A stretch of 64,000 nucleotides of DNA, taken from the NCBI GenBank assembly GCA_004123355.1, contig SCHM01000002.1, positions 9,025,569-9,089,568 of the forward strand. The letters run 5' to 3'. Both the position numbers and the translations under genes were made by a program. The notes under the pieces are model-generated. The model did no database searches, had not been told where the DNA came from, and saw only the letters and a list, made by a program, of their open reading frames with translations. Source of the DNA: Amphirosellinia nigrospora. Taxonomy: Eukaryota; Ascomycota; Sordariomycetes; Xylariales; Xylariaceae. This document shows, piece after piece, positions 1 to 64,000 of the stretch (positions are counted from its first letter, which is position 1; each line of letters begins with the position of its first letter).

Positions 1-41
1 TCAGAACAGAGAGCACACCATTCATTCTCGCGCAAACTTAC

Positions 42-275
42 CGTCATCGGGGGTCAGACTACCGTGGTACTCGACGAAGAGATATGGGAATGCGCCGTGG
101 ATATGGGCACAGACTTTCTGGCCGGTTTCGGTCGATCCGAAAACCCTGATAACAGGCACTTTGGGTTCCTTGCGCAGCTGTGATAGTCTGACATCATTTC
201 GAAGTGACGGGTCATATTGTGTCGGGGTTGCTTGATAGTGGTCAATGCAGTTCACCGCACACGGAAAACATCCAT
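42..275 (-). CDS. REV3: DNA polymerase zeta catalytic subunit, 5' exon only
   Basis: First coding exon of the translesion polymerase Rev3 (family B); the rest lies off the left edge. Recognised from NCIDHYQATPTQYDP and VPVIRVFGSTETGQKVCAH, which match the Rev3 N-terminal region. The exon ends at 42, followed by a GTAAGT donor reading leftward from 41. The family starts M-x-x-FRVR-L-NCIDHYQATP. The ATG at 275 encodes MDVFRVR, but it is one base out of frame with NCIDHY, and no in-frame ATG lies just upstream. One more G in the GG at 255-256 would join them. The gene is divergent from SLU7 across about 490 bases. Identity is firm; the exact start is not. Confidence 0.85.
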
Positions 276-766
276 GGCGGCTTATACAGTGTCCATGATA
301 GCGGGGGGTTAAACCAGAAGGCGCCGAGCAGAAGGCAACATAACGATATCAAAAAAGTTTGTGACTCAAAAAGTCCAATATAAGCGCTCGTTTCTTTATG
401 TTAACATGGTCGAACACAATCATCATTAAATGCAGACGCGTCGAGCTTAACCTCACTACAGCCGCGCTAAACTACAGCGTATAATGACGCGGGTTGCATG
501 CGCTGTCAGGTGGCGTGTAAAGCGTGTAGAGGTCACCCCCACTATTCTAAGCTTACTCCAGCCACGTCCCAAGTCTACCTGCGCCTGCAGCATTGAGCAC
601 CAGCCACACCTACAGTACTAGATGTTTTTGACTTATTGCCCAAACATCTTTGCGCCGCCGCCTAGAATTTCATGACCATTTCCTCTATATTGTGACTTTC
701 TTGCGCCTTGATCTCTTCAGCGTCACCTAACATAGTCATTAGTACTTTCTGACGCCAATTTTTACC
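276..766. promoter_or_regulatory. Intergenic region between divergent REV3 and SLU7
   Basis: About 490 bases that must hold both promoters. There is no convincing ORF. The SLU7 proximal part (600-766) is pyrimidine-rich, with scattered CT stretches typical of fungal 5' leaders. No specific factor site can be called. Confidence 0.4.
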
Positions 767-2179
767 ATGCCACCTCCACCACCTCCCCCGTCGCGGAGGA
801 ACGACTCTAAAGCGTCTGCTGCATCAAAAGAAGAGAACATATACATTCCGTCGTTTATCAGTAAGCGACCGTTCTACGCTGGAGAAGAGGGCGATCAGTC
901 TGATTATCTCGAGCATCAGCGTCTCCAAAAGACCAAAGATGATCAGTCGAAATGGTACGATCGCGGCAAGAAGCTGGGTCCGGCGGCGACCAAGTATCGT
1001 AAAGGCGCGTGTGAAAACTGCGGCGCCATGACGCACAAGACGAAGGAGTGTCTCAGCCGACCGCGCGCCAAAGGCGCGAAGTGGACGGGAAAGGATATTC
1101 AGGCCGACGAGGCCATACAAGACGTGCAGCTAGGCTGGGATGCCAAGCGCGATCGCTGGAATGGCTACGACCCGAAGGAGTACCGCCACGTCGTAAACCG
1201 CTATACACAGATGGAGGAGCTGCGCAACCAGCTGGATGGAGGAGTGAGAAGGACAATAAGGAGGGCGAGGACGACGGACATGACGGCGAGAAGTACGCCG
1301 AGGAGTCAGACATGGGCCGACACCAGAGTACTGCAACGCGCCAGCTACGGCTACGGGAGGATACCGCGAAATACTTGCTCAACCTCGATCTCGAGTCTGC
1401 GAAATACGACCCCAAGACGAGAACCATGGTAGATGCTGGCGCTACGGCAGACAAGGCCGCACAACTCTTCGCAGAAGAGGGCTTCCTACGAGCGTCGGGC
1501 GACGCCGCAGAGTTCGAAAAGGCGCAGAAATACGCTTGGGAGAAACAAGAAAGGAGCGGCGACACAAGCCAGCATCTGCAAGCCAACCCTACCGCGGGAG
1601 AGTTCCTGCGAAAGAAGGAGGGAAGACACGGAAACGAAGAGAGCCATGCAGCTCAAAACATTACAAGATAAATATGGCGGTGGCGAAAGTACGATGCCGT
1701 CTGCGCTTCGTGACGTTGTCGTGACGGAGTCAGAACAGTTTGTCGAATACGACGAGGCAGGTTTGATCAAGGGTGCACCAACAACGATTGCGAGGTCAAA
1801 GTATGCTGAGGATGTCTTTACGAACAACCATACATCAGTTTGGGGTAGCTGGTGGTCTAATTTCAAATGGGGCTACGCGTGTTGTCACTCCTTCATCAAG
1901 AATAGTTATTGTACAGGGGAGGAAGGCAAGAAGGCCTGGGAAAATGCCGACCGCCAGCGGACGGGCGTCGGTCTCATACAGGATACACCCACTCAGGAAG
2001 GAAAACAAGATACCCAGGCAGAGGCAGCAGAACCAGCAAACCCAGTCGTCAAGAAGCGAACAGTGGAGGAAATGATGGGTGGCGTCACAGAAGCCGAAAT
2101 GGATGAATATCGTCGGAAGCGGACAGCCACCAACGATCCTATGGCGAAATATTTAGGTACAGATCAGTTAGCATCATAG
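767..2179 (+). CDS. SLU7: Pre-mRNA splicing factor SLU7
   Basis: Second-step splicing factor acting in 3' splice site selection in the spliceosome. A proline run at the N-terminus is followed by the conserved block around a CCHC zinc knuckle ([14 protein letters not shown], about residues 84-97), then [22 protein letters not shown] and [15 protein letters not shown], all Slu7 signatures. It is a single exon of about 470 codons, normal for fungi. The frame is broken twice with compensating shifts: one base is missing near 1239-1246, and one extra G lies in the run at 1620-1622. The 380 bases between them read in another frame but align perfectly to Slu7. Since Slu7 is essential, I read these as sequence errors. 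Convergent with RPS9. Confidence 0.93.
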
Positions 2180-2403
2180 CAAACAGTAAAAGATGGGACA
2201 CCGAAAATAAGCAGGATTATAGAGTCTTCAGTCACTGGTAAAATCATCAATTGGTGCACTCGTGGTATCATTCATGAATAAGTTCATGCATTCCGGTTCC
2301 CTGTGGCCTAACGCCTGAGCTCTGAATGGGCATATATACCCATAATATCATCACTTTTCCGTATCCCAAGCGGCCCAACTGAACGAAGTCTAGGACGTTA
2401 CAT

Positions 2404-3153
2404 TTACTCTTCCTCTTCCTCCTCCTCGTCATCCTTCTTCTCGGCGGCCTTGGCCTTCTTTCTGCGGACACGACCGGGGCGGCCACCTCCGAAGGCCGAG
2501 GTTAGGGCGAAGTCAATGTGCTTCTGGGAGTCGAGACGGACAATGAACGAGGGGACGTTGACGATCTGCTTGCCGACACGGATGTGGCGCTGGCGGATGA
2601 GGACACGGGCGTGGTGGATAGACTTGGCAAGACCGAGCTTGTAGACGCAAGTCTGGAGGCGGCGCTCCATGAAGTCTTCGACCTTAAGGGCAAGGACATA
2701 ATCGAGCTTCATGCGGGACTCGTCGAGCACACCGATACGCACGAGACGGCGAATGAGGGCATTGCCTTCGAACAGACGCTTGGGGTCCTTCTCGTCGAGG
2801 GTAAGAAGCTGACTATAGAAGGGACTCAAGTTAGAATTTATTTCCAGACTTCGTTGTAGTTATAAATAACAATTAAAGAGCTAAAACGCAAAGCATGCAC
2901 ATACCGAGCAGCACGACGGATCTTGGAGAGGGTGAGCTGGACACGCCACACCTCACGCTTGTTGCGCAGACCGTACTCGCCAACGAGCTTCAGCTCGGAG
3001 TCACTATTGTTCGAACCGTGTCAGTTTTCCAATTCACATTCGACTTAAGCAGAGACACGCTCATGCTCAGTGGCCGGTGATTACTGACAGTCGGGCGGCC
3101 TCGAAGGGACGACGGGGGACCTTTGCGGTCTTGGAGTAGGACAATGGCGCCAT
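2404..3153 (-). CDS. RPS9: 40S ribosomal protein S9 (uS4)
   Basis: Small-subunit protein uS4, which binds 18S rRNA early in assembly and helps form the mRNA entry channel. Exons 3089-3153, 2905-3003 and 2404-2812 join cleanly to 190 residues, the usual length. It starts [21 protein letters not shown]; the S4 RNA-binding fold follows ([22 protein letters not shown], then [17 protein letters not shown]). The tail is basic and then a run of glutamates encoded by TCC/TCT repeats on the plus strand. Donors are GTCAGT and GTATGT. No frame problem. Divergent from RPL21 over 437 bases, so the two may share a promoter. Confidence 0.96.
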
Positions 3154-19000: not shown

Positions 19001-19532
19001 ATTTAGGTAGTCAATTTTGAGCCTCTCGCACCAGTAAAAGTTAAATAGATGGTTAGGTAGGTAGGTAGCTCCAGGATTCCCCGGTGTATCGCGGACTTAC
19101 GGGCGCGGGCATTGTCGGCCCCGAGATCCCAGCGACCCAAGCCTGTGGAACACCATTCGAACAAAATCGTCATTGGTCTATCATTCTCCATGAAAGCTTC
19201 TATGTACTTACCCTCCGTCGCATACGGAACCCCGAGCATCAATAAACATTACGAGATGCGCATATTTGTCTTTGCTTTCTTTGTATATTTACTACGATAG
19301 CTAGAGTATGACCTGTGCCGCCACGGAGCATCGGCCACCGCACGTTCCCTCCTCGAGCTCGGAGGCTCAGTTTTCCACCTCATCCGACAACCCAAGCTGC
19401 GTCAAAGACTCATCATAGCGCCATAACGTGGTGAGATATGCTACGCGCGCCGATTGCGCGCCACTGCGCCCGCCATGCGCCGTCACGATTCTGCTCTGCT
19501 GGCCGCCTGGGCGTCCGACGGTTAGATCCCAC
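16028..19532. other. Long intergenic region with TAGGTACCTA palindromes
   Basis: 3.5 kb without a recognisable gene. An ORF antisense to nothing known (16040-16624, minus, ending next to palI) is probably palI leader or promoter. The region is marked by TAGGTACCTA motifs, including exact palindromes at 16674-16685, 16735-16744 and 17295-17308, and a TAGG tandem run near 19053-19067. The last 300 bases are GC-rich and lead into the ABC1 kinase gene. Confidence 0.45.
17295..17308. repeat. GGTAGGTACCTACC palindrome (one of a dispersed set)
   Basis: Perfect 14-base palindrome. Sister copies of the core TAGGTACCTA occur at 16674-16685 and 16735-16744 and near 61889-61898; tandem TACC units occur at 50245-50271 and 57389-57408. 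The motif appears only between genes here. Its role is unknown; it could be a binding site or simply a common low-complexity unit of this genome. Confidence 0.6.
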
Positions 19533-21464
19533 ATGAATCTCTCGCGAGGACGCATCCCACTCCGGCGGGGTATGCAAACCCAGAACACGCCTTTCGAGCC
19601 CCTACGTCCACCATCCCCGTCATCCCTTGGCCAACCCCAAGCAGCACGACAGTTCAAGCGGAGTCGGAGATGGGGTCGGCGTCTACTGATCCTCGGCGCT
19701 GTGACGGGGGGTTATACCTGGTCGACCGGATCGTATTTGCGTCGGGAGTCGGACGCTCGCTACTCACTTTTGGGACGGGTCTCTTTGTGGCGCTTGATTA
19801 TAAGGTCAACTTCCGCCCCGAGCCAATTACAGGTGGTACAATTGAGGACCTGCATCGACGGAGTGCCGAGCGGCTTTTCGAATTGTTGAGAGCAAATGGC
19901 GGGCTATATCTCAAGATTGGGCAGGCTATTGCTATGCAGAGTGCGGTCTTGCCACCCGAGTTCCAGAAAATGTTTGCCCGCATGTTTGACGATGCGCCGC
20001 AGGATAGCTGGAAGGATGTTGAGAAAGTCATCCGCAAAGACTTTGGCGGGAAGAGCCCTGAAGAGGTTTTTGGGGTGAGCTTCACGGGTGAGGAGGGGAA
20101 GGGACTCATGGAACGACGAGCGCGGGCGAGCGCGAGTGTTGCGCAGGTTCATTGGGCGAGGCTACCTGATGGTAGAGAGGTCGCAGTGAAGATCCAGAAG
20201 CCGGAGATCGCAAAACAGGTTGGCTGGGACTTGTGGGCTTTCAAGGTTGTCATGCGCGTATATACGTGGTGGTTCGATCTTCCGATGTACTCCATCGTCC
20301 CGTTCATTACCGAGCGCCTAATGCTCGAAACAGATTTTGAAGCGGAGGCGAGGAATTCGGAGGTAATGCGCAAACTAGTTGAGTCGGAACCAACCCTCAA
20401 GGGCAGGGTCTATATCCCTCAGGTTTACCCAGAGTTCACCACGAAGCGAATTCTGGTCACAGAATGGATAGAGGGCGTACGGCTCTGGGACAAGGGCGCT
20501 ACCACAGGACGCTGGCTTGGCGGGTATGGCAACGGGTCGGCTGGCGTTCACGGTCAGAAGCTGAATCTTACCCCAGCAGACATACAAGCCGCACACGGGG
20601 AGCTACAGCAGAATTCATTCAAAGAAAAGCTGAAACCCGAGCGCGAAGATTGGAAAGGGCGGAATGGTAAAGGCGGCTTAGGTCTCTCAAGCAAAGATGT
20701 AATGACTACGATGGTGGACCTGTTTTCAGCACAGATCTTCAAATGGGCGTTGTGCACTGCGATCCGCACCCGGGTAACATCTTTATCCGTCGCCTACCAT
20801 CTGGCAAGCCCGAAGTCGTCCTCATTGACCACGGCCTCTACGTTTACATGACGCCCAAGTTCCGGCAGCAGTATGCCCTCTTCTGGAAGAGCCTGATGAC
20901 GTTTGATAATGGGACGATTGCGGACATATCTGAACAGTGGGGTATCAAGGCTCCGGATCTCTTCGCAAGCGCAACACTCATGCGCCCTTACGAAGGCGGT
21001 GACGGGTCTACCAAGCGTTCGTTGACCAAGGAGCTGTCTGGCAAACGAAAGCCGAACGACATTATGAGATGCAGCAGCGCATGAAGCAAGGCATTCGCGA
21101 TTGTCCTTGCGGACGAGGACAAATGGCCCAAGGAACTCATATTTATTGGCCGTAACATGCGTATCGTGCAAGGAAACAACCAATTCATGGGATCACCCGT
21201 CAATCGTGTGAAAATGATGGGGAACTGGGCTAGCGCCAGTCTGTTCCAAGCTCCAGATCTACCACTGCGAGAGCGCTTTTTCTACGCCTGGCGACATCTG
21301 CTCTTTAAGACCGTCCTGTTCGTTACGGATATTGCGTTCTACACTTTCAAGGTCCGGCAATGGTTTGGGCTTGGGGTGGCATGGAAGATGAGGTGGAAAA
21401 AAGAATGCAGGTTATGGCAAAGGATTTCGGCGTTGAGTTACAGCATGAGGTGTTTGAGGGTTAA
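19533..21464 (+). CDS. ABC1/ADCK atypical kinase, Mcp2-type, mitochondrial
   Basis: About 644 residues. The start MNLSRGRIPLRRGMQTQN looks like a mitochondrial presequence and is followed by RRWGRRLLILGAV, a likely membrane helix. The ABC1 core is clear: LYLKIGQAIAMQSAVLPPEF (KxGQ motif), ASASVAQVHWARL, the VAVKIQKP lysine, VTEWIEG, VVHCDPHPGNIFI and the VLIDHG metal-binding motif. Mcp2/ADCK1-type proteins act in mitochondrial lipid homeostasis. Five one-base shifts break the frame: missing G at G6 19706-19711, GGG 20745-20747, GG 21040-21041 and G4 21373-21376, and an extra T at 21101-21102. Correcting all five gives continuous family sequence ending ELQHEVFEG. An intron-free gene with no other damage, so read error is favoured. 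Confidence 0.85.
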
Positions 21465-27361: not shown

Positions 27362-28824
27362 CTACATGGCCATCGCCTGCCCAGGAAGCTCTGAAACCCA
27401 ACCATCCGTGTCTTCCACGACGGTATTCTTGACAGCACACTTGTTCATCTCTTCCACCGTCTGGGTCTTTAATATGCCCTGCATGCCCGGGCTCCCACAC
27501 GCGTGGAACATGCATGTACTGTTCATGGCTCGCTGCAAGCTATCGCCCTTCCACCCGAACATGTAGTCCTGGAACAGTCAGCGTCAATTGGTGCTATTTG
27601 TAGCTGATATGTGAGGGCCTTGGACGATTCTAGGCAACGTGTTGTCGCGAGAAGGAAAGCTCGGGTTCTGAAAGTTTCTAATTGCAAGAGGGAAATTGTT
27701 CCAAGAATTGCTTACTGCGTGTGTTCCGTATCCCTTCCCGTCCATAAACGACCACACAAATGGCTGTGATCCATCTTTTGGCCACATGTCTTTGAAGGCT
27801 GTGGTATCCCACATTGTTTCGTAAGCGAGCTGTGGCACGCGGACCGGATGAGAGGCAGGGCAGGGACCTGCTTCTCGGAACTGACCCCTCGTCGTGCTAA
27901 ACATGTGAGACTGGTGGTCCGGACTATCGAGGTTCACGCCGTCCCAGCATGCAGGGAAGTGGTGGATTGCCATTACTAGGGCACGCAGAGTAAGCAAGCG
28001 TCATTTAAACGGCACTCTAAACCATATGAAACTTTTAAAGCATCCATTCCGGCCTGGAAAGGGATATTTATTCTTAAAAGCCCTCTAGATAAAAAAGAAA
28101 TGGCTGAAGACTACTCACTTCCTGCGGGGCATGGCTCATCCGGTAATTCAGCCGTCTCGTAACCTCTAGTCAGGATAGTTTGCAGGCAAGTATATCGAAG
28201 CCCTGGCTGGGCACTTGAATTGGTGATGGAGGTAGTGGTTGGAGAGCCGACTGTCATCCTGAAGCCCTACACACCATGCTCATTAGCCTCCCATTTACCG
28301 CTACTCGAGGTAGAGATATATGCAGCGTACGGGTTGAAATGCGGTGATATATTGGTCACCATTGCCTGAGAGATCCTTTTGGCTGTAGTAGATTGTCATC
28401 CCGCCCTTGATATCTGGAGCATCTTGGCCCTCGTAACCCAGCTGGGCATTTGGGTACTGCGGAACTCTCTTGTAAGAACCGTTTTCATGCTTAAAATACA
28501 AAACCTGTCGACATGTTAAAGCTGCAAATTAAAAGCAAAAAAAAGCGAGATGATATGAATGTAACAGTAGTAGACTGACCGCCGTCCAGTAATTTGAAAA
28601 GTCCTCAGTGTATGCGCATGTTGTGCAGCTGCCTTTCTCGCCAATGTCCCCTGCATAGTCGCGTTGAAGGCATTTCCGCCGACGATTTGGTGGACGTGAG
28701 CTGAAGGGATCTGGCCCGGCTCGACGACCGGATCTAAGCGCTGGATGGAGACGGACGAGCATCCGAACCGAAGACCAGCCTGGGAGAGCCCAGCTTGCAA
28801 GACGAGGGGGTAGATGGCCTTCAT
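27362..28824 (-). CDS. Secreted DUF1996-domain protein
   Basis: Five exons: 28580-28824, 28331-28504, 28119-28266, 27716-27975 and 27362-27568, giving about 344 residues. The domain is recognised from LRFGCSSVSIQRLDPVVEPG, HVHQIVGGNAFN, CTTCAYTEDFSNYWTA, GGMTIYYSQ, FPACWDGVNLDSPDHQSHM, GPCPASHPVRVPQ, DGSQPFVWS and DYMFGWKGDSLQRAM. DUF1996 proteins are secreted or cell-surface fungal proteins, often linked to WSC domains; no activity is established. Here there is no WSC domain. The N-terminal 16 residues may be a weak signal peptide. One G is missing from the GGGG at about 28648-28651. Introns are 60-150 bases with normal ends. Confidence 0.85.
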
Positions 28825-30675
28825 CCTCGCTGGAATAGGGGACGGCCCCTTACTGTTTGTTAACCTTGGTGATGGCCGTTGTTGGCTTGGGATAACGAAT
28901 TTATTAGCATCGCGCTACAGCGTAGTGCCGGATCATCGAGACTTATAAAGAGTATGGATCCGGGGCTGTAGATTAGGTAGGAGAAATATGCCGCCGCTCA
29001 GTTGATAATATTGCCAAGATAATATACGTCTTTTAACGAGGTATCCCCAAGACTAGTCACTAGGCGCAATATAAATTAACCTATCCGACGAAAGCGATGC
29101 CAGAAACCGGGGCCCGGATAATTCGCATCAATGATAATTCCAATTGCCGATTCGTCAGTGCACCACCTCATATATATTATGGCATATCGTATCGTTTGAA
29201 TAGTCTGCTTAGTTAGTTGTTGTTTGCCGCGCTGGTCCTCGTAGTTGCATAATGGAAGAAAGGGGGTGTATACTATTATGTAATGACACCCCTATTATGA
29301 CTTCGACACTACTCCCGTTGGCGACATGGTATATACGAAGCTTTCAAAAGCGTTAGTACTTTTGGCTTTGATAAGAACAGTCAGCTATTTGATCCTTTGA
29401 GAGTGAGATATCCCACTCGTTATGATATAGAATACCCAGTCAGAACAAGCTTATAGCCAAATCTGTACTTCTATGTATCTCTTCTTATCGGCACAAGTCA
29501 CTTCTCTTACGAACTTTAATTTCGAATCCCTTGAATATGTCAGGTAATAGAATGATCGAGGAAGACCTTGTTCTTACTTCATAGGACCCCTTGATAATTC
29601 CAATAAACGTGTGTAACAAAGTCGCAGCACACACGTAGACAAAGGGGGCTATCTCTATATAGCGACGTCATATTCATAGAGGTAGGTAGTGTTAGAGATC
29701 TCCACGCTGCAACAAATACAGATAAATACCCCATATATCACAGGGTGTCACAAACGGAAATGCGCCACTATACTGTAATATTCTAGGTATAAGGCTTTAT
29801 TTAAAGGCCTTGGATTCCCTTATTTTTCGGATCTCCTGAACTGTGTAATTGAGCTCTATGCTGTATTACTTCGTAATCAGTTTTACAGAATTGGCCTAGG
29901 GTACCTGTGACTCTATTACTCATCCAATACTCGACGTAGTCACTCAGGATGAAGGGGAAGCTGCTGACCAAAGTGAACGCAGTATATTGATAAGATCCAA
30001 AACACCGAAATGCCCAAAGTGTGTGTCTGGCTAAGTACAAAAGAGAAATACAGTGAAGGGAGTCTGGTGTTTTTAACCTATCGTTACCCCTGTTATTTTG
30101 CCCCTTTTTCTCCTGGGCCTACTTTGCCTTGGTAATTCACTCGCACTACTTTAGTACCTCCTTCGCTAAAAACGAAGGTATAAAGAGAACAGATGATTTG
30201 TATATTCAGATCTAAAATTACTAAAAACTATTGTATCTTACACGTTTGACAATAAGGATATCGCTTGATTTTTGGGGGCAGGTTGTAAGGTGTGAGGGGT
30301 CCGATGGGCCCACACCAAGAGGTAGGCAGACATTTGTTGTGCAGGTCAGCCATAGACTTAGCAAGTATATCATTATTTAGACCTCCCTCGTACTAACTGC
30401 GTTGTCTAAACTCCATGATGACCATCCAGAAACTTATAGAAACCATAAACCCTTATAATTCTGGCCGAACGATTTAAGGCAGAACACGGCACCCTAATAG
30501 CCCGTTTGCCGTCATTCTCACATCCCCACCAACATTTCGCACAGCAACTTTCCCGGCTATTCCCGCCACCAAGCACAGTTTACATACGACACGTTCAAAT
30601 TCAATATTGGAATATTTAACTGTCTCAAGAGCCCTCAAAGAACTCTCCGTGTCTCTGACTCTGGAATTACACACC
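28825..30675. other. Intergenic, no gene seen
   Basis: 1.85 kb of AT-rich sequence with no supported ORF. The last 200 bases are the leader of the metallophosphatase gene. Confidence 0.4.
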
Positions 30676-31851: not shown

Positions 31852-34800
31852 TCAAGTGACAACAGCAGCACCAAAGACACCATTCTGGACCGGAGCACCG
31901 ATGCTATCCTTCAAATAGCAAGCACTTCCCGCCAAAGCAACGGACATGCATCCCTCGCGCTTCGCACATATCTCGAGACAGGATGTGAAGTCTGCGACGT
32001 AAGCCGGATTGGGAGCGGGCATGTCGCCGCCGGCATGGTCGATACCGCACTGCACGTTGAAACGCGTCCCCGTCGACGCCGTGTATGTCTTTCCATCATC
32101 GGCAGGGCAAGTTATAGCTGTTGAGGATGAAGTTGGACGAGGTGTTGTCGAGACGGTCGAGGTGGTGATGGTGGTGATAGTGGATGACGCAGCCGACGCG
32201 AGGCGCGCACCCCAGATTCCATTGTAAACGGCCGCATTGAGTTGAGATTTGAGGTAGCACGCGTTGCCCGAATAAGCCAAAGCGACACACCCGGCAGTGT
32301 TGGAGCAAGCTTCCACGCAAGCCGCGAACGTGTTCGCTGTCAAGGCCGCGAGATCACCGCCAGCAAAGTCTTTGCCACACTCCACCACGAACGTGTCGCC
32401 GTCGGCTGCTGTATAGGTGGTCTGGTTCGAGGCAGGGCAGGAGATGGCGCTGAAAGCGGGAGCAGGTGTGGCAGTCCCCGTACTGGTCGTCGTGGTTGCT
32501 GTCGCCGCCGACTTCAAGACGGCCCCTGAAACCGCATTCTTCACCTCTGCTCCTATTGAGCCTTTGAGGTAGCAGGCACCGCCAATATGCGCCAAAGCGA
32601 TACATCCATCCCGGGCGGCGCACGCTTCTAGACACTCCTGGTAGGAGCCGACTCCGAGACTTCCGATGTCTCCTCCAGCATGGTCGGTCCCGCATTGCAG
32701 GAGAAACTCTTCTCCGTTAGAAGCCGTGTAGGTCTTTCCATCCGAGTTTGGGCAGTTTACTGGCGACGATGTGGCTGAGGAAGCCGCCGTAGTAGTGGAG
32801 GGCGTGGGTGTTCCGCCAACTATTCTAGCTCCCCAAACGACTCCGTTAGGATTCGGGGCCCCTACGATTCCCTTGAGATAGCACGACGTGCCAACATACG
32901 CGACCGCATTACAGCCGATAGTAGAAGCACAGGCATCAATGCATTTCCCAAAGGTGTTGGCATTGAGCGCACCGATGTCGCCGCCCGCATAATCAATACC
33001 GCAATGGACTTCGAAAGAGGACCAGCGGAGCGATAGGTGGAATTGTCGTCAGAAGGGCAAGCTGGCCCATTTGCAGGATTGGTAGTAGGACTAGTCACAA
33101 TCGTGGTAGTCGTAGTCGTAACCGGTTGCCCAAACTGGACGGCAGTGCCATTGAGCGCATAGAGGGTAATTCGATTGCCAGCGCCGCATAACTGAGAGTC
33201 ATCTCCACCGCAGGACATAGAACAATCCGTCTCGCTCGTCTTCGTGTTACCTGGCGTGACGATGTCACCACAGTAGCACTCTGTGGAGTATTCGGTAGCA
33301 AAGTATTTGTACCGCTGCAGGAGGTCGCGCAAACCCGTTAGTCATATTAGCTGACGGAGCTGACTTGGACACCAACGCACGAGACGGGTTGGAATCCAAA
33401 TAGCAACCCGCATACTGATAGCTGCCAATGGTTGGCGGGGCACGGGGTGGAATCGCCAGGGACGGAGCTGATGTCCCCCAAATAGAGAGACGAGAGTTTG
33501 TACCGCAAGTCTGGGTATTGTTGCCAGGACAAGTCATATAGCAGCTGCGGTCTAAAACTTGCTGCGTGGTTGCGGCCACAACGTTACCGCAATAGCATTC
33601 CAACCATACTCCATTCCAGCCAGCTTATAGCCCTTTTGAGCGCATGTGGAAGTACATAAGTCGACAGTGTTCGCGGGGTCACTGTAGGCAAAGAGCCCGA
33701 GTGCCCGCGTAGACCCTCCGTCAGTCCAGCATCCCTGGTAGGTCATGTTATTGTATGTACCGCTGGGTTTGTTCGTGGCGGCTTGCTTGCAGGTTGCATT
33801 GGGCAGAGGGCTGTCGCCTGGAGCCTGACGAGGGCAGTAGGAATCAGTAGACCTAGACAGATCTCCGTTGAAGTTGTCATTAAACAACCGAGCAAGCCCG
33901 GCTGAAGACGCGAAGGCGGCACCGGCATCGTGACCAGCGTCGATGTAGTCTATCGTGTCGCAAGCAGGATCAGATGTCCCGCTGCAGGTTGGCGGAAGCT
34001 GGCAATGAAATTGAAGAATCGTTCATCGCGATTGCCTCCCTGGGAGAAGGGTGCGCAGTCGCTTGAGTCGTCTCCAAAGTCCTGAAGGGAGCGTAGATAG
34101 GCAATGGACTTGGACTGATAGTTTGCCCGCACAGCATCACCTCCTCGTGCAATTAGATCTGTGTTGTACGACGGAGTGTAGTTTGAAATGCCTTCACGCC
34201 AATCATTATAAACGAGCATGTGGAAGAATCCAGGGGCCGCGACATGTTGAACCAGAGCCAGCTGTTCGGATTCCCGACCCAGTAGGTAAGTCGAGTCTTA
34301 CCCAAGGCGCTGCTGAGGTCTTTGCTAACGGATGCGTAACGCTGCGCTGTCTGCGCCCCAGCCGAGTGGCCAGCAACGACGATCTGGTTAAGGTTGGGGT
34401 ATAGAGTCTTATTGCCGAAATATTGGATCATCTGGTCCAGACAGTCATACGAAGACGTGGCGGTCTGCGTCCGTGGGTACTGATTGTTGTCTCCCGACAT
34501 CCACCCAGAGCCTTTCCATACCAACGCATTCGATGTAGACCCGTAACCGCCGGCCGGAGCGGTATCATCCCAAGGATAGCCTACGTGCTTGTCGGATCCG
34601 GTCGGAAACATAGGGGCTGTACTGCGTTAAAAAGAGCGGCCTAGGCGGGGTGGAGGAGAGTCACGAACCTATGATCTGGGTGTTGGCAAAGTTGGCAGGT
34701 CCATTTGTATTTTGTGACAGCGCAGATAGGGCATTTGACATATATGTGTCTGGGTCCCTGTTTAATCCGTGTATGATGAGAAGTACCCTCTTCACATCGG

Positions 34801-36449: not shown

Positions 36450-37800
36450 TTACGAGCTTTCATGACCTTGACGCGGCGTCGTAGGTGTCGCTCTAATCAG
36501 CTCCTCCTCGGCTGGTGGAGGTATCAGGCGTTCTACCTCACGCGTTGACTCCCAGTGCACCGTTCCGTACCTATACAGCTCGCCAAAGGTACCCGGCCTC
36601 TGAGTCGCATCCTTGAAGCCGTCCTTCTTCACCACATCTCCGAGCGCTGGTAACCCGCCCGCCGAGTTGTGGTAGACTTTGTACATGTGGCTCTTCTCAA
36701 TCACTTCGAGGACGAAGGCTTCCGCCGCCTTCCTCTTGTCCTCGTCTGGCTCGTCAAGCGGCGTGGTGAAGAGCGCGGCTTGCTTGTAGCCATCGTAATC
36801 CGTCTTGATCGCCCCAAGAATGCCGTTGAATATTCCTTCCACCATGAAAACCTTGTTCTCCCAGAATTCGCGTCCGTTCCAACCCGTGCTCACGTCGAGC
36901 AGGTTCTTTGTGCGGTCGCCGAGAAGCATCTGAGCCACATAATCGCTCATCTGGAGGACCTTGTCCTTGAACTCCCAGTCGGCCATACCCTCGGCAATGC
37001 CGATGTCCTGGACCAGAGGTAATTTGTGGAAACCATCACAGTTCGTGTGGTCTCTCCACAGCTCTTTGTAGGAGAGGTGCCAGTTCTTGACAAAGACAGA
37101 ACCTTTCGCGCGGCCATCATATAGTTTGCCGAAGCTACCCCATTGTTTTCTAATCTGCCCAGTAATGATCCAGACGGCCATTTCGTAAGGCGACCCCGGC
37201 GCCGTCAGGTGATCCCAGAACAACTTGTCGAGATGGGTATGCAGCATGTTTCCAACATCCATCCAGACACCTCCGTGCTCGTATAGGAGCGGCAGCCGCA
37301 CCAGGTCGGCAGAATGCTGCGCCGCATGCTTGCCGTCCATGGTTCGGTTCACGAAGCAATCGGGGAACCAGTCCTTGCCGACATAGTTGTAGATGTTGTT
37401 GGGCGAGTCTTCCAGGAGGTCGACGATACGGACGGTCCAGGAGCTACCGAGTTTCCTGACCCAGTTTAACACTGTGCATTGGTAGCTCGGGTACATGCGA
37501 TCCCAGCCCTTGTCCCAGAAACACCACACGTTCTTTTCTGAGGTGATGGGTCGGAACCTTTTGAGGTCTTCTATTATTTGTGCCTCAGGTCGTAGGTCCA
37601 ACTGAGACTCGGCACTACACGAAGGCCGGTGGTTGATTTAGGTAGTGTAAACTTGGCCATCTAGGATTGGCTAATTGCGTGAAGTATAGATGAGAGTAGG
37701 TATGATATATGTTGTAAACTCTGTGAGTCTGTGAGAAATGTCTTGAGATCGTCGTGGTTTGGGATGTTGTGCACCTCTTATACTCACTTGAACCTGACAT
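36450..37800 (-). CDS. Glycosyltransferase with DxD motif (capsule-synthesis-like)
   Basis: Resembles the Caps_synth / Gly_transf_sug group of sugar transferases: NVWCFWDKGWDRMYPSYQ, WTVRIVDLLED, HSADLVRLPLLYEHGGVWMD (with the DVG metal/sugar-nucleotide motif), then a long C-terminal domain. The conserved frame has no ATG before a stop at 37638. A 17-base first exon at 37784-37800 (ATG TCA GGT TCA AGT GA) spliced to 37614 through a GTATAA donor and TAG acceptor gives a phase-correct 393-residue protein starting MSGSSDAESQ. That start is inferred. No signal peptide or membrane segment. Substrate unknown. Otherwise free of frame problems. Confidence 0.75.
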
Positions 37801-38436: not shown

Positions 38437-39810
38437 ATGATCGGCCTCAAAGATAAGCCCCAGTACTATGACATCGACGCCAACTTCAAGCCATTGCCGA
38501 AGTACGGGCATCTCTCCGAGAAGACGCCAGAATTCGTAGAAGTCGAGTCCTTCATCGGCGCCGCCTACGACCAATTCTGGGACTGCCCGATATCCCCTCC
38601 TTCCGCGAGGCTGCCGGCGACCAAGATGCCGTCATGCCCGGGCGGACCTGATCGGTACCGTGAAGTCGAGACCGAGATCTTGCATTTCCCCGCCCGCGAC
38701 GGCCACTCGGTCGAGCTAAAAGTTTACAAATCTCCAAACGTGTCACCGGATGCGACCCTCGTGTACCGGATGCACGGCGGCGGTATGTAACACCGGGCAT
38801 CGGCTCTCTTCGCTCTGAGTCATGATGTGTTGACTACTTTACCTAGGCTATTGTGTCGGAGGACACGAGGTGGACGGCGCCGAGAACGTTTATGCCGCTA
38901 CCAACACCGACATCATAGTTATCAGCGTTGATTATCGAATGTAGGGTTTTCGCCACTATACATGTGAATTTCATCTCCATCTGCTTACATCGTTCTATCA
39001 AGGGCACCCGAGCATCCCTTCCCAAAGCCGGTGGAGGATTGCTGGGATGGGTTGTTATGGGTATGCAGGCCAATACCCAAGCATTTCCTCGGCCGTGTCA
39101 CGTCCACTAATAAGTTTCAATCTATAGTGTAAGGAAAATGCAAAGATGCTCGGGATCAACCCAGAGAAGATCATTGTTGCAGGAAGTAGCGCGGTGCTAA
39201 CCTGGTAAGTTCTGAAGCCCTACCATACGAAGCCACATACATGTTCTCACATACTAACACCCCATAAGTCCGCTGTTTTGTCAATCATGGCTAGAGAAAA
39301 GGGCGTGACCGGTATCATTGCCCAAGTGCTGCACTTCCCATCAGTCTGCCATCCTAAATTCTTCCCGCACGACAAGTACGAGCTCGGCAGCCACATCCAG
39401 AACGCCGAGAACGTCGTCCTCAGCTCCGTCAGGTTCGACGTCTTCCTCAACAACTATATCCCCAATCCCGAGCCCGATTACAGGCACTCGCCTCTGCTTG
39501 CTTCGTCGTTCGAAGGACTCCCAGCAGCACGTAAGCGAATCCCGTTGCTTTCCTAAATCAAGTCTTTGTCGAATTAATCCAACTAACAATTTTTCCTAGT
39601 AATCCAATCCGCGGTACTGATGTCTTGCGCGACGACGGTTTCGCTTATGCCGACGCCCTCAGATCTGGACGTGTCGACACCGAGATGTACTGCTACAAAG
39701 GTGTCCCGCACTGTTTCCCTGCAGTTATCATAACCCATCCTGAAACATCAGTTTTCTACGAAAGGTTCAACGCCTTCCTCAAGAAACACGCAAGTAGCGG
39801 AAGCCCTTAA
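38437..39810 (+). CDS. HSL-type alpha/beta-hydrolase (lipase/esterase family)
   Basis: Six exons: 38437-38782, 38847-38940, 39003-39060, 39128-39204, 39269-39530 and 39600-39810, giving about 349 residues. Family IV (hormone-sensitive lipase) features: oxyanion motif MHGGGY, VDYRMAPEHPFPKPVEDCWD, the GSSAG nucleophile elbow (at the exon 4 end), and the catalytic His in GVPHCFPAV. No signal peptide, so likely an intracellular esterase; substrate unknown. Four one-base shifts: a missing C near 38582, an extra G near 38640, a missing G near 39194 (inside GSSAG), and a missing G near 39614. All corrected phases agree. Branch sites such as AACTAAC at 39581 are clear. Confidence 0.8.
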
Positions 39811-45800: not shown

Positions 45801-48087
45801 CGGCTTCGACACCTCCGGCTCGCCTGGGTGGCGTTACAAGCACAAAGTCCCACAACGGCAGAGCGCTGGAATAGAGTCAAGGTATGGTGGTCGTTGGTCC
45901 GGGGTCGGATACTCCTACCAGGCACGTCAAGGTCTACCTATCTGTTCCCGAGACCCCTCCACCATAACCACAGCATGTCTGAGTATCTGACGTGTGCGAA
46001 GGTATGCCCGTACTACCCCAGTTTGAGACCGTAACACCGGCTCATTTAACGATGTCCTGGGCGACCCAGAAGTCGGAACCGAGCTTGGCGGGCGGCGAGG
46101 ACAGCATTGGCTCGTAGACAATAAAACGCAGCATCTCATGTCCCGCAGCTCATGGGGGTGCTTTTCTGGTTGCGGGGATAGCTACTTAGTACGGGAGCAT
46201 AGCCAACAATGTGTCTTTTTTAGATTACCGTTGAAGTGGAATGACCCAACTCACCAGGGGACGTACAGGAGCCGCGTCGTGCTTCACTAGCGCACAGAAG
46301 CAAGTTCGTTCTACGCTCCCCCCACCGCGGCAAGGTACGCAAGGTCAACTAGCCCCTTAGGAACGCTGTTGGAGTATGGAGTACGTATACAACATGACCG
46401 TCGTTCAATACGACGCCGTAAACTGGTAAGATGAGCTCGAAGATGGGGAAACGTGGATTGATGTAGATCTTTTACACCCTTCTCTCAACAATGAAACAAA
46501 GCCTATCAGAGGGAAAGAGGAAGAAAAAGGAATAGAAATAGGAGAAGGGGTTGGATTCGTAGTCGAAGCTGGCTCCACTCGCATATCTTCCGATGTTCAA
46601 TATATTCTCAATATTGGTACTCACACTATGATCGTCTATGGCATACCGTTGAGCTCGTAAACCTACAATGATTGCGTAATTACGTTTCTCTCTCTCACTT
46701 GAGTTCGACTCCGACTTACGTGACACGTAACCATCTTCTGAAGCACGACTTGTCTCAACAGTGCTTATTCGTCAAGGTATCTCTGCCTTGGATGTTTACA
46801 ACCATCGTACATCAGTGATACCTAGACAACGAAGAAGTTATCGGCTTATCTCGTGGCGGCCAAAAGTGACACCAACCTCACATGGCGGAAAGGATAAGGT
46901 GCCTATCTTTAGGTGACGTGCTCAGGTCTCGGCCACAGCTAAACCGTATGACTTTAATTGATTGTTTCGTACCCTCATTGTCTCTCGAGCCGTATAGATG
47001 GCGATTTACTTACGGATGGTATAACTCGGAGACAGATCGGACGTATCATCAAGCCAGGACATACGTTAGCAAATGAGCCGCCCATGTTGGCACGAGGTTT
47101 GATTATAGACATTTTTAGGTAACTAACGTTGAGGATCGAACACCAGACACCAGGTTGTGCAGCGGCCTTTCCCGCTGTTGCTACATGGTTGACGGGACAG
47201 ACATGGTGAACCAGCCTGACAAGGTGGGGGGAGTTCTGGACCCTTGTCGGGAGCACGAACGGTGGGTGGTTCGTCGATGATTGGCACAACGCTTGGTGTC
47301 GGAGGCGCCAGTCATTTCGAGTCTAGTCGGACATTTCAACCCTCCAGCGGTGGTGTCGTCGTGGTGTAGGTAGGGTGTGTAGGGTGTGTAGGGTGTGTAG
47401 GGCCTAACGGCCTAGAATAGATCAGAGGATGATCAGTGGAGACCCGAGTGCTAAACCTGGAGCCCAAGACAGACCCAAGACTGACCCAAGACTCTGAAGG
47501 TATAGGTAGCACGGCATACCTACTCCTCATCCGCTTCACCACCTCCGCCACCCCTTCAACTTTTTCTTATATGAGAGCGCCTCGGCGAAGCGAAGGCTAG
47601 ACGGCGAACTGTTTCTCACCTACCCAGTACCTTACGTTTGGGGACACACTGCACCTCTTGGCTCTCGAGAGATCCATCGCTGCGTAGACAGGCCACCTAC
47701 CACTAATTACCTGCGTTGCCGTTGCACCCGGGGGCATTCGCAGAGACACCAGAAACGACACACAAGCACACCTCACACCTCATACATCACACATCACACA
47801 TCATAAATCATAAATCATACGCCACACACATACACGCACACATATACACACACACGCACGCACGCACGACGCGCCGACGCCCAGCTTTCCTTCTGTACTC
47901 GGCCCAATCCCCTTTTCTTCCCCTACCAATCCCTTCTTTCCTGCCCTCTTCCCCTAGGTCTACTACCAACCTACACCACGATCTCTCATTCATCATACAG
48001 CCTTGTCTGTAGCCTCTCCTTTAGCTAGACTTATTTTCCCCGCCTCGCTTCTAAAAGACCCTGTCATCGACAACTCCGACCTACGCT
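42828..48087. other. 5.2 kb gene-poor region
   Basis: 43.0-44.9 kb is AT-rich with no supported ORF. 44.9-46.1 kb is richer in GC and contains coding-like patches with no recognised family, for example EEKAQLLRGFQRGNVADSCR (plus, to 45474) and ISSRDIIEAALDSHTAASLM (plus, about 45555-45620). These sit in different frames and have no clear start or splice sites. A 9-base GTGTAGGGT unit repeats three times at about 47370-47400. 47.7-48.0 kb is a CA-rich microsatellite tract that forms the leader of the bZIP gene. Confidence 0.4.
47755..47875. repeat. CA-rich microsatellite and ATCACACATC-type repeats
   Basis: Runs of CACACA, CACGCACG and repeated CATCACA/CATAAAT units just upstream of the bZIP gene. 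Simple low-complexity DNA, probably in the 5' leader. Confidence 0.7.
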
Positions 48088-50263: not shown

Positions 50264-50271
50264 CTACCTAC
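50245..50271. repeat. TACC tandem repeat
   Basis: Nearly seven perfect TACC units. It overlaps the last codons of the small ORF 50264-50629 and belongs to the dispersed TAGGTA/TACCTA motif set. Confidence 0.8.
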
Positions 50272-50629
50272 TCCTTGATAACTCCAAATAGGACCAGAAA
50301 TCGTCACGTACGACCATACCTCCGGAAGACTCGGGATCCCGTCCGCTCTCCTTCGATAAGCCGGAGAGGGCCAAGTTAGTAGTTGGGTCGGTGACGACCA
50401 GCGAATCCTTGGTGTTGTACGTCTTATTATTTTCTTTTCCTTTTTGTCGGTTCTCAATGAGCTCTTCTACTAGGTTGGATTGTCTCCGATTTCTACCAAT
50501 TAAGGGGATGGGGCCTATGATAGATAGGGGTAATTGTAATGGTATGAGTGAAGATGCGAGATGACGGGCGTACCAAAAAATAGCAGATGTAGTAGTCCGA
50601 GTCAGTATATGGGCAGTAATGGTCTCCAT
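50264..50629 (-). CDS. Small hypothetical protein
   Basis: 121 residues, intact ORF starting METITAHILTR. It has one moderately hydrophobic stretch (SLIPLQLPLSIIGPIPLIG) and a polar C-terminal half ending GMVVRDDFWSYLELS, which has the look of translated sequence. The stop codon lies in the TACC repeat. It could be a real small gene or the last exon of a longer one whose upstream exons I cannot find. No family recognised. Confidence 0.4.
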   Translation of the reverse strand: METITAHILTRTTTSAIFWYARHLASSLIPLQLPLSIIGPIPLIGRNRRQSNLVEELIENRQKGKENNKTYNTKDSLVVTDPTTNLALSGLSKESGRDPESSGGMVVRDDFWSYLELSRSR

Positions 50630-54152: not shown

Positions 54153-57147
54153 TTACGCAACTGACGCCACTATCAAAGCCGCAACATTCTCTTCCTCGCT
54201 GCGTACAGTGATCTTAGTTGTTACCCCGACTTGGATGAATATGCCATCCTGATATTCGCTACCACTCTGCCGCCGTTGACCGTCTTGCCTAGTAATTTGA
54301 GTTGATGTGTTGTCTGGCTGATTGGCACATCTGTACCCTCTAATGGCTGCAATGAGAGCGCCTTGGTGAGTTGCTCTGTGGCATCTAGTCCAGTAGTGTC
54401 AGTCAGCTGGCTCGAAATCAATTCCCCTAATGGCAAAGACATACCTGCAATGCTCTTCACGCTGGATAGTTGTAATGTCTCCTCGGCCTCTTCTCCCGCC
54501 GCACCAACTTGTTCCCAGACATGATTGAAGTTGCCCGCAAAGGTGGGTATTACGTAATCACTACCAGACAAGTCAAATTCTGCTACCTCGTACTCATCAT
54601 CGTACCCAGTCTCATCGGGCTCGTTGGTGGAGGGGTCGATCTCTTTGCTGGTAAACTTGAGGACATTAGAAAAGGAGCTGGTAGGCATTGTTCCTTCGCC
54701 ACCCGTCTTCTTGAATGCCACGTAGACCTTCCCAGGTTCGTCTGGCTCGAGCTTTTCTGCGGGTAAAATGAAAACCTCCTCGAGCTCCTCCTCATCCGAG
54801 GGAGTGGCAACTACTTTGACGTCTTCCAAAATTGCTGGAAGTGTGTTCTTGATCTCGTACTGTAGGACTATGTGCTCTTTGAAGATGTGCTTGACAACAG
54901 TTACTACGTATTCTGTTTCGGCTTCGGTAAGCTCGATAACAGGCGACGACTTCAAAAGACCACCGAATTTCTCCATGTGCGATATCGACATGAGCTCCTG
55001 GGTATATTTCTGGGCTGCGGCAGCAGCTGAGGCTTGCGCCTCAGCGCCAGTTGAGGCGGCCTTAGATGGTCCCGTCTTAGGAGGCTTGAGTGAGGATGTT
55101 GTTGCCGTAAGCTTCTTCGTTCGGTCTTCCGCGTCTGCTTGCTCCCGAGTGACAACGGGGATTTTGCTGATGTCGAACGGAATATCAAACGCTGACTTGT
55201 CATCTGAGGTCACATATGTGACGAGCTGGTGCTCAAAATAAGGCAATGAGAACATGTTTTCTAATAATAGTTAGTACGAAGAGTAAATGGTGTTTTTCCC
55301 CGCTGTGCCTACCATTCTTGATAAAGCGTTCGCCTAGGTCATCCTCTTCATGCATTAATCTTAAATTGAGTGCTGCGCGGTCGCGAACTTCATCATCAAC
55401 ATCATCTAAGCATCTTGTGAGGAGAACATCGACGCTTCGCTTCACTTCTGGATCCTTCTGTCCAACACCAAACTTGGCCAAGGCAGTAACGGCGGCAGCC
55501 CGAACAATGGCGTTCTCAAGTACAACTCTGTTGTAAATATAGCGGATATACTTGGTTGGTTGAGATGTCTTGGGGCCCTCGAGACCAAGGAGATGCAAAA
55601 TTCTGACAGCTAGTTTTGTGAACTCGCAGTCCTCGATGAACTCGCAAAGATGAGCAAGAGCATCCTCCTTTGAGTCTGGAACGAATTTAATAAGGTCGAA
55701 CATGCTCTCGACAACGGCTCGCTTAAACTCATAACCACCTTCATCACGAAGGATCCCACTGAGGAAAGCTAGCATGCCAGCTTGTTTGCTAGGGAACTTG
55801 AGACAGAGAGTGCGGATGGCTTCGACTATCGTGATCTTGAACTCATCTGTGATTTCTGACATAAAGCTAGATATCTGTTTCATCAACCTGTCAACGCTGG
55901 CCTCGTTGCCGGTCTTGAGGAGAGTTGTGATAGCAAATGTAGCGATTGAGCGGTTGCTATTTGAAATAAGCGCTTCTATATCTGGATTGCAGACATTGAC
56001 GGCATTGGTTTGAATGAGGCGAAGTTGTGGAGAATGCGCAGAGCAGCAAATTTGGTGACCGCCCTTGGAGATGACGAAACAGCTGCAGTACATGGACTGC
56101 TTGCGTAACTTCAGCATCCGTCACGTCCCTCATGTCGCAAATTGCCTTCGCGGCTTCAAAATTCACCATCTCGCTCTTGTGTCTTAACCATCCATCGAGC
56201 AGTTGCATCATCGTTTCCTGAGTGACTGTCCTCTTCAGCAATTGGGCAGCCAACCTCACCACATCACGATAGCGGCTGGACTCTTTCACAGCTCCAGCGC
56301 ACCAAATGCTGGACATCTTAACTAGTGCCATCCTGTCGTGTGATCGCATTTGGTAAAGCAAACCAATAGCATGATACTGTGTCATCGAGAATTGTTTACA
56401 GGAAGAGAGCCAGAGGACGAAACCCGAGAGAGAACCCTCCGGACGACTTCGTCGAAGCAGCGGCCTCTTGTGTCTCAGACTGCCACCGGCGAACGACATC
56501 CTTGGCGATGGGGAGGATGGTAGGAAGAAACGAGGGCTGCGGAGGAAACGGAGGGTTCTTGTCGACAATTGCTGTCTTCATGACTCGCTCGATCGATTGG
56601 ACGGTGGTCGCCTACATCTCTGTTAGCTGACAAGAGCGCGAGATGCTTCGTATCTTGGTCGACTGACATCAATGATGCGGCACAGTGCCCTTATCGCGTT
56701 TGGCCGGTAATGGCGTCTGTGCTGCCCCCTGTCCTTCATAATGTGCTGGTCACCATGATGATGTCCTCGGCTGAATTGGCAAGCTCCTTGATGACGAGGT
56801 GGACCATCTGGCGCAAGCTGGCATCTTTGTTCTGGAATAGCTTCGAGATACCGAAGAACAGGGTGGTGGCTTCGTTGGTGGGAAACTTCTCCCCGTATAA
56901 GGAGGAGAGCTATCTTGGTAAGAAGGATACGGCATCGTCGCGGCTGGATAGGCGAGCTGTTGAACAACCGGGCTACACATCTCGTTTAGTTGTCTGGTGC
57001 CAGAGGGGATTCCTCAAAGGGGGTTCTGAATTCCCACGGAGGGTCTTCAGTGACGAATTGGAGATGCACACCTTCTTGGAACACCTGAGTGCGATCGACT
57101 TTGACCAGGCCGAGGTCGGCGTCTTCATCTTTTTTGCCGTAGCTCAT
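54153..57147 (-). CDS. SEC21: Coatomer subunit gamma (gamma-COP)
   Basis: Subunit of the COPI coat for Golgi-to-ER transport. It starts MSYGKKDEDADLGLVKVDRT, with exon 1 at 57072-57147. The adaptin-like helical trunk follows (RLFNSSPIQPRRCRILLTK, YRPNAIRALCRIID, QYHAIGLLYQMRSHDRMAL, SKQAGMLAFLSGILRDEGGY, YIRYIYNRVVLENAIVRAAA). After a hinge comes the appendage domain (FSNVLKFTSKEIDP, GKTVNGGRVVANIRMAYSS). The 3' half is clean except for one missing G near 54225; with it the protein ends ENVAALIVASVA at 54153 rather than stopping at 54221. The 5' half (about 56050-56920) carries at least eight one-base losses. At least four introns, one with a GTACTAAC branch site near 55272. An essential gene, so a real pseudogene is unlikely. 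Confidence 0.9.
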
Positions 57148-57552
57148 GGTGCGGTGAGACGGCTCTCCTAGGGCCCGAGAAAGTCAAAGAGATCCCGAGT
57201 TGGAGTTGTTGACATTTAAATCCAGATAGGTCGATATTGGAGGGTCGGGGACAGGCTACACATCCATGATATCCCTAATCATTAGCAGCTGGTTTAGCGG
57301 CCTCTCAAAACAGCGACGTTGCAAGTGGATGTGGGCTAGTCACGTGAGTCCCATCGCCGCACTGGAGCATTCAATGTGAGGTACTTAAGTACCTACCTAC
57401 CTACCTAGGTAGTTAAAAGCATTATTAGATGTAGTGAGGTCCTCGATCAACTCGATCCCCAAGAGCTCTCGTTTGGCTCCTACATATTATTACAACTCAC
57501 AGAATCTTATGGCCACCGATCTTTTTCTGCTTATTTTACGTTGTATTGCAGC
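57148..57552. other. Intergenic between SEC21 and the 3' end of TRM44
   Basis: About 400 bases that must contain the SEC21 promoter. A TACC tandem with a TAGGTA end lies at 57389-57412. Confidence 0.4.
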
Positions 57553-61504: not shown

Positions 61505-62280
61505 TTTGGCTGTTCGTGAAGGTCCAGAGAGTCCTGTTTGAGTCACACGGCACTGCTAAGGTTTCTGATGCTTGTTACCCTACCTAGTACCTACAGACCA
61601 GACTTCAGGCCCCACCCCCACCATGGTTGATCCCCTCCTTGTTCTTATCGGCCTGCCTACCCTGGAGCGAGGGCTAGCCTAGCCGGAGCCTCAGCCAGAT
61701 CGGCGCTGACTCTTTTTTTTGGTGTCCCCTTTTTCACTGTGCATTGTTGCCCCTCACCTCTCTTTCAAGTCCAGTCCATGTGGGGCGCTCGCCCATCCAC
61801 TGCCTGCCCCGGCCAAGCCACCTGCGAAACTTAGGTAACGTACCTGCCTAGGATAGGTAGCAGTACCTGCTACCTGGTACATACCTTAGGTACCTACCTA
61901 GGTACTGTAATGTAGGTAGTTAGGCCCTGTGCCACCCACACACCCACTTGGCCCGTTGCGGTGGCTACTTGGTGGTCGCCCTTGCCCATTGCGCTCCCTC
62001 GCATGACAACCTTCCAACATACAAAAGGCCGTCCCGCCCTATACCGTTCCCCAGTCACACTCCGCCTCCCTTCCAACTATAACAACACAACATCGTCACA
62101 CCAGTCCAGCCTCTATATCGGCCTCTGCACGCAAACCGCCAACTCGGTTTTATCCTTTTTAGCTTTTGCACAGATACTACCAATCAATTTCTATCAGTAG
62201 TTCAGCGAGACAGCAGTCGGTCGCTTCTCCCCCTCCACCCAGAAACCCTTTTCCCAAGGTTCCCCAGAAAACTCGAGTTT
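61505..62280. promoter_or_regulatory. Bidirectional region between FRS1 and SUI1
   Basis: 776 bases between two translation genes transcribed apart. Contains a dense cluster of TAGGTA/TACCTA motifs at about 61836-61925 and a CT-rich leader before SUI1. No ORF. Confidence 0.5.
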
Positions 62281-63014
62281 ATGTCCATCGAAAATCTCAA
62301 GTCTTACGGTATGGCTCCTCACAATCATTAATCACTTCCCTGCGTTGCGCCGCATCGCCCATAATTACCGTGCGGAGCTTGTTGTCGCGCGCGACAGCCT
62401 TCGTTTTACCCCTCTATTGACTCTATTCCGGGAATATATGCTAACCCATACCTCTTTGCAGACCCCTTCGCCGAAGCCGACGAAACGCCTGGCGAATCCA
62501 AGCAGGCACAGAATTACATCCATATTCGTATCCAGCGTACGTTCTACCTAACCCTCATACTCTACCAGTGGCCACTCAGGCATATGTGCGCCTTAATGCG
62601 CGCTTCTACTGAAATCGCAACTTGTCCCGAGTTCCACGACAAAGGCCCCCACATGCACTGCGTACTTGGGCAGTAAGCTAACATCTTTTCTCTGCCACCA
62701 GAGCGAAATGGACGTAAAACCCTGACCACCGTTCAGGGTTTGCCGAAGAAATTCGACCGAAAGAAGATTCTTAAAGTTATTAAGAAGAAGTTCGGTACGT
62801 TCGTCGCCTTGATCTAGTCTACTCATGTTGAAGGTTCATATGGCTAACCGGCCCGCCACTTACAGCTTGCAATGGCACTATCGTCAACGACTCTGAAATG
62901 GGCGAGGTGATTCAGCTCCAGGGTGATCAGCGTAACGACGTGCAGCAGTTCCTCGTCGACAAGGTAGAGGGTCTAGAGCTCGATCCCAAGACCATTAAGG
63001 TCCACGGTTTCTAA
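62281..63014 (+). CDS. SUI1: Translation initiation factor eIF1
   Basis: Scans for the AUG with the 43S complex and guards start-codon fidelity. Exons 62281-62308, 62462-62536, 62702-62794 and 62866-63014 join exactly to 114 residues, the family length. It begins MSIENLKSYDPFAEADE; the core NGRKTLTTVQGLPKKFDRKK, KKKFACNGTIV, MGEVIQLQGDQRNDV and the end KTIKVHGF are near-invariant. All four exons are in frame with no shift. Confidence 0.97.
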
Positions 63015-63890
63015 GCTGGTCATGTCCTTAGCGACCTCCGTTATGCCGATGCCTTCGATCATATACGGACTGTGTCACGGAATGGGCTAGCTCACTATCT
63101 GCGGTGCACAATGTAGCAAAGACGACTGAACACCGCAAAGCTGTCCATCTATCCAGTGGACAGGCTTCCTTCGGTCGAGGCGTTATACGGAATGGTCCGG
63201 ACATGATACCCTTTTGATACATTACGAGAGAGTTATTATTACAGACAGGAGGAATTCCGACGTCAGGGTGGTCTCACGTGCGACCCGGTCGGCTTGGTGC
63301 GGTAGGACAAGAGATGGTCAGCTCTAGATGCTAGCCTTTCGTTACCGATGCTACAAGCATGGAAATGGATTCAGAAATCCATGTTCTCCCTATAATTTTG
63401 CATTGGAATCTTGATATGATTGTGACCCTGACTGGGTAACCTTTTGCTAATACCCCAACTACTTTATCAGTCGTCGAATCATGCTGCGCCCAGCCACATG
63501 TTAACAGGCCAGAGCATTTGGCAATATTTGAAGAGACTGAATGTAAGGCATAATTGCGTGACGACTTCGGCATGACTAGCAATTATTGCGATCGTGCATG
63601 ATGTGGTGTGGAGACAGCAAAACACCGCAATCAAGTTACATATTACTGATCCAGCTAGACATACGAAATCAGACACAATCATATAGGCCTGTCGTTAGAC
63701 CCAAGCAACCTTAAGAACTAAATCATAATCTTTCTTATTTGCTCACTTATCTAGGTATATCTACCTAAGCATACTCGCCCCCGCTTTGTGATATCGTCGA
63801 TCTAGTCCCTAAGTCATATAAATTTTCGTGCAGGAAAATAGGTTGTCGAGATTTCTCCTTTTCCCTCCTGTTTGGATTTGGAATATCGGG
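63015..63890. other. Intergenic, no gene seen
   Basis: About 880 bases between SUI1 and the gene that starts at 63891. Short minus-strand ORFs have no family similarity. Confidence 0.4.
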
Positions 63891-64000
63891 ATGGGAGGCT
63901 TGCAGGTCCTCCCGCCGCCTCCCCCAAATTTCTCTCGCAAGAAGGAGCGCATCATCGAACAGCTCGCCATCCCCGACGCCGAGTACAGTGACGCTTCGCC
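63891..64000 (+). CDS. TYW3: tRNA wybutosine-synthesizing protein 3, 5' part
   Basis: The window ends 36 codons in. After a proline-rich start (MGGLQVLPPPPP) the sequence reads FSRKKERIIEQLAIPDAEYS, which fits the N-terminal block of TYW3, an AdoMet-dependent methyltransferase in the synthesis of wybutosine at position 37 of tRNA-Phe. Too short for full proof. Confidence 0.72.
   Translation, partial: MGGLQVLPPPPPNFSRKKERIIEQLAIPDAEYSDAS

Follow-up and report, generated by a model that had tools for sequence, protein, structure and literature searches.

Broken reading frames in a fungal genome assembly almost certainly reflect sequencing mistakes, mostly lost G and C letters

Introduction

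Why do conserved, essential genes in one stretch of fungal DNA appear in pieces that lie in different reading frames? The window, by which we mean the whole stretch of 64,000 nucleotides that was analysed, is C4:9025569-9089568 in an assembly of 48,114,038 bases (48.1 Mb) and 11 contigs from a filamentous fungus. The rDNA ITS in locus L086 looks like that of a xylarialean ascomycete. SLU7, PheRS beta and other genes that are broken here are essential. An earlier note on this DNA had claimed that one-base shifts, mostly losses in short G and C runs with some extra bases, break conserved genes throughout the window, and had blamed an uncorrected long-read assembly. Here we report that the breaks in the window's genes almost certainly stem from sequencing mistakes, chiefly the loss of G or C letters, and that such mistakes are spread over the entire assembly.

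Results

Frame changes in conserved genes of the window

PheRS beta, SLU7 and COPI gamma were each tested against one solved homologue by frameshift- and intron-aware alignment. The translated pieces of each gene, joined by X, align in order on a single chain (8s8b_C for PheRS beta, 5xjc_Z for SLU7 and 5a1u_E for COPI gamma), and 10 frame changes without room for an intron were found in 1248 aligned codons (Table 1); this is no average rate, because the three genes were picked for their visible fragmentation. The changes in SLU7, one loss-type and one gain-type, fall near 1252 and 1626-1630, and a short part of COPI gamma near the gene start showed no frame change over 52 codons. As a control of the aligner, we simulated 24 clean genes of similar divergence with one intron each and then planted two deletions in each of them. 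No frame change was called in the clean genes, and 44 were called for the 48 planted deletions, a comparison of counts and not of positions.

Further genes of the window are also in pieces. The ABC1 domain matches profile positions 2-157 in the ORF at 19526-20851 and positions 184-242 in the overlapping ORF at 20671-21084, which lies in another frame. Between the damaged genes there are long single ORFs with family matches, at 30478-31698, 31852-33048 and 36450-37637. For the two genes searched individually for further copies, SLU7 and PheRS beta (by its B5 domain), profile search of the whole assembly found no second match.

On the minus strand at 31852-34022, a PAN-domain ORF adjoins two WSC-domain pieces, and together they may encode one or two secreted sugar-binding proteins in broken frames. 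Short tandem repeats with several different periods cluster at 47370-47947. A codon-usage hidden Markov model with intron states was dropped because short introns and frame shifts were inseparable in it.

Table 1. Features of the window (positions counted from its first nucleotide)
Feature	Position	Strand	Observation
SLU7 splicing factor gene	about 798-2144	+	three overlapping reading-frame pieces; 2 frame changes; 360 codons, 166 identical
Small-subunit ribosomal protein S9 exon (S4 domain)	2404..2859	-	single open frame, without a visible break
ABC1-family kinase gene	19526..21084	+	domain divided between two ORFs that overlap in different frames
DUF1996 gene	27587..28914	-	at least three pieces; introns possible between them
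Alpha/beta hydrolase gene	39209..39807	+	in pieces, introns possible; one match under the family cut-off
5S rRNA gene	50306..50423	+	sole Rfam match reaching threshold in the window; 118 nt vs 120 nt, diverged
COPI gamma subunit gene	54221..57172	-	main tested part with 2 frame changes (near 56075 and 56004); 329 codons, 176 identical
Cytosolic PheRS beta gene	about 61400-59600	-	6 frame changes and 3 canonical introns (51-58 nt); 507 aligned codons, 263 identical

Frame changes across the assembly

We then surveyed five protein families by profile search over the assembly. The matches covered 42.2 kb in 35 gene pieces and left 49 junctions where one matched piece adjoins the next. Junction sizes were corrected for profile overlap; a first count of 25 frame changes, likewise in 15 of the 35 gene pieces, had ignored matches running into introns and was replaced by a partly different set of 24. 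The corrected junctions comprised 18 that are compatible with an intron (net 35-152 bases), 7 in frame and 24 frame changes that leave too little room for an intron. At least one frame change was present in 15 of the 35 gene pieces, six of them chaperonin-family and four of them HSP70 genes. Thus small indels break conserved genes genome-wide, as expected of long-read consensus error.

The net sizes of the 24 frame changes were -31, -19 and -8 (once each), -4 (twice), -2 (five times), -1 (ten times, the commonest), +2 (twice) and +4 (twice), so that 20 were negative, 4 were positive and 21 lay between -4 and +4. Less sure are the three largest, which depend on profile gaps, and the 4 of the 24 junctions that cross more than 10 unmatched profile positions. 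The nets of -19 and -8 both belong to SLU7, where the homologue alignment resolves them as one loss and one gain. The proposal of one-base shifts holds in kind for PheRS beta, SLU7 and COPI gamma, but not for single bases throughout, as nets of -2, -4, +2 and +4 occur too. Gain-type changes also occur: PheRS beta has one or two of them and SLU7 has one, and four nets of the survey are positive.

Not every match was broken. Among ten Cpn60-family pieces, six had a frame change, two were unbroken over nearly their whole length, one had an in-frame junction and one was a single partial match; other HSP70-family matches were unbroken as well, for example C5:4071527-4072810. When the longest ORF was recorded for each piece of about 3.1 kb, the median was 206 aa in 20 pieces of the window vs 193 aa in 59 other loci (p 0.22). 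The fault described for the window is not confined to it but extends through the genome, and by this measure the window fares no worse than the 59 other loci.

Sequence context of the breaks

Four HSP70 genes were aligned with a close homologue, and each of them was broken, with 6 breaks in 2292 aligned codons; in one example 452 of 600 codons were identical to the homologue despite the break. Three of the six breaks stand at C runs of 5-6, two at a CCC and a GG, and one is a net -4 without a long run. In all, four of the six have a G/C run of at least 3 at the break or next to it.

For the wider survey we tested 18 profile-located breaks, the subset of the 24 frame-change junctions with fetched sequence and a set interval (one interval spans 73 bases). 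The mean of the longest nearby G/C run was 3.06 vs 2.53 in random stretches (p 0.0065 at a padding of 9; p 0.013 at 6 and 0.0275 at 12). The effect was weaker for runs of at least 4 alone (p 0.03 to 0.19), and A/T runs showed no enrichment at these 18 breaks relative to random stretches. An earlier version of the G/C-run test, on 23 junctions with five intron-compatible ones among them, gave p 0.059. Concentration of the losses in G/C runs, as had been claimed, is clear in the 5S genes described below, seen at four of the six HSP70 breaks and moderate at the 18 junctions, and some losses fall outside runs.

Run lengths were surveyed in about 247 kb of this assembly alone, made up of window positions 1-64000 and 59 loci (L001-L060 without L022). 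G runs reached 6 (28 such runs, none longer) and C runs 7 (3 such runs), whereas A and T runs reached 11, and the window holds one T run of 14. A ceiling for G and C runs without one for A and T suggests that the sequencing method shortens G/C runs.

Length differences in untranslated genes

We also analyzed genes that are never translated. The 5S search listed 33 matches, with 47 of 2127 candidates scored, and 31 copies were examined (30 listed loci and L067). Two matches longer than 120 nt, C9:107319-107445 and C4:7540864-7540995, were left out of the comparison, and the statement on insertions below excludes them. Of the examined copies, eleven measure 120 nt and the remaining 20 fall short of that length. 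Seven of the short copies differ from a 120-nt copy by lost bases only, without a single substitution, and the losses fall in C5 (five), G4 (two), G3 (two) and A4 (one), with one further T and one 3-base loss. All 20 short copies together carry single-base losses of 19 G/C and 7 A/T letters, four losses of 2-5 bases, one 2-base insertion and 91 substitutions, the latter mostly in diverged subtypes; no single-base insertion was found in these 20 copies. Some of the losses in diverged 5S copies may be real. The 5S gene in the window weighs little because it is such a diverged copy, with 12 substitutions. The 5S genes (L001-L030 and L067) are dispersed and form several sequence subtypes within this one genome.

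The rDNA shows the same behaviour. Pairwise comparison of three rDNA stretches on contig C10, over 1758, 1758 and 2494 columns, showed no substitution, and G or C run length differs among them at three places, with L085 being 4 bases short of its sister copies. Untranslated genes of both kinds, 5S and rDNA, are thus affected in the way that long-read consensus error predicts. Furthermore, three tRNA genes appear by eye to be shorter than their sister copies (L054 by 1, L068 by 2 and L070 by 1 base) in a comparison of the best-scoring 30 of 58 listed loci, which is biased towards intact copies.

Matches to 5.8S rRNA lie at 104, 43832 and 58339 on C10 (L085, L086 and L087), a spacing that suggests an rDNA repeat near 14.5 kb, with the units between these three unlisted. 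Inspected by eye, L086 has apparent extra sequence upstream of the ITS, which may represent introns of the small-subunit rRNA gene.

Discussion

Small and mostly negative length changes occur in coding and non-coding sequence throughout this assembly, and its G/C runs stop short. We are highly confident that these indels are consensus errors remaining in a long-read assembly that accurate reads were not used to correct, or not used well enough. The proposed cause has simple steps: base calls would drop single letters or several at a time, chiefly within G and C runs, the consensus would retain the loss, and correction with accurate reads would be absent or insufficient, leaving the losses in place. 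Nanopore is the most likely platform, and the errors may go back to thin coverage or to a lack of short-read polishing. Against the error reading count the losses outside homopolymers (the HSP70 net of -4, several junctions of -2 and the 4 bases of L085), the gain-type changes and the unbroken matches of the HSP70 and Cpn60 families.

The genes could instead be truly broken, in a strain with decayed genes or a decayed nucleus, and the indels do stand in the sequence as given. However, decay would be at home in genes that are dispensable or have another, intact copy, and the affected genes are essential, with no other match in the assembly to SLU7 or to the B5 domain of PheRS beta. Moreover, decay would erase the conserved protein that persists between breaks (263 of 507 codons identical in PheRS beta and 452 of 600 in one HSP70), and the rDNA copies vary in length but not by substitution. 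We therefore regard decay as very improbable. Programmed ribosomal frameshifting, which occurs in some organisms, might read through the breaks, and most of them share one direction as such a process would have it. A single gene, PheRS beta, would nevertheless have to be rescued at up to six breaks, no common slippery site was seen by eye at the HSP70 breaks, and a process restricted to translated genes would not account for the same losses in untranslated 5S rRNA genes or for the affected rDNA, which leaves frameshifting exceedingly unlikely.

Insertional RNA editing, by which the missing G and C would be put back into transcripts, has a precedent in Physarum mitochondria, where C is inserted into transcripts including structural RNAs. 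To our knowledge there is no case of nuclear insertional RNA editing. If editing were at work, the base should be absent from the DNA of all copies, yet otherwise identical 5S copies occur with and without it, and G/C runs stop at 6-7 in the DNA at large. We give this explanation almost no credence, and equally little the idea of a fungal nucleus in which G/C insertion restores messenger and ribosomal transcripts with letters absent from the DNA. Together, decay, frameshifting and RNA editing fit poorly because of the losses in 5S and rDNA, the lack of second gene copies and the conserved protein between breaks, and it is the loss of bases from untranslated genes that decides for an artefact.

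The earlier attribution to an uncorrected long-read assembly is accordingly supported, by the G/C-run losses in 5S genes, the length differences in rDNA and the genome-wide breaks in essential genes. What we describe is an ordinary artefact of data quality and not biology. It serves as a warning for annotating this assembly, from which gene models, claims of gene loss and pseudogene counts would be wrong for many genes. Multi-copy 5S genes provide a detector of such errors in fungal assemblies that needs no reads.

The error reading also fits because the same fault has been published for nanopore assemblies of ascomycetes (PMC7500977, PMC9453082). Homopolymer indels are presented in the Homopolish report (PMC8011154) as the main systematic nanopore error, one that shifts frames and survives read-based polishing; that report concerns a correction tool for several kinds of genome, whereas the platform of the present assembly is only inferred. 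Low-coverage nanopore assemblies of filamentous ascomycetes are described in PMC9453082 as having indels in homopolymers and, less so, elsewhere, and the present assembly likewise has both; those assemblies were polished, however, and at 100x no indels were seen in three genes inspected there. The closest parallel comes from Drechmeria coniospora, also an ascomycete, for which PMC7500977 describes nanopore-only assemblies whose homopolymer-dominated indels shift the frames of conserved genes. Fewer than 1/6 of 305 conserved genes were predicted at full length in the new genomes before the polishing described there, and the fault can go unnoticed in completeness scores that are tolerant of frameshifts. 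According to the same report, those assemblies share with ours a chromosome-level contiguity, indels mostly in homopolymers and frameshifted conserved genes, and differ in that polishing introduced more insertions than deletions in Drechmeria coniospora, whereas losses prevail here.
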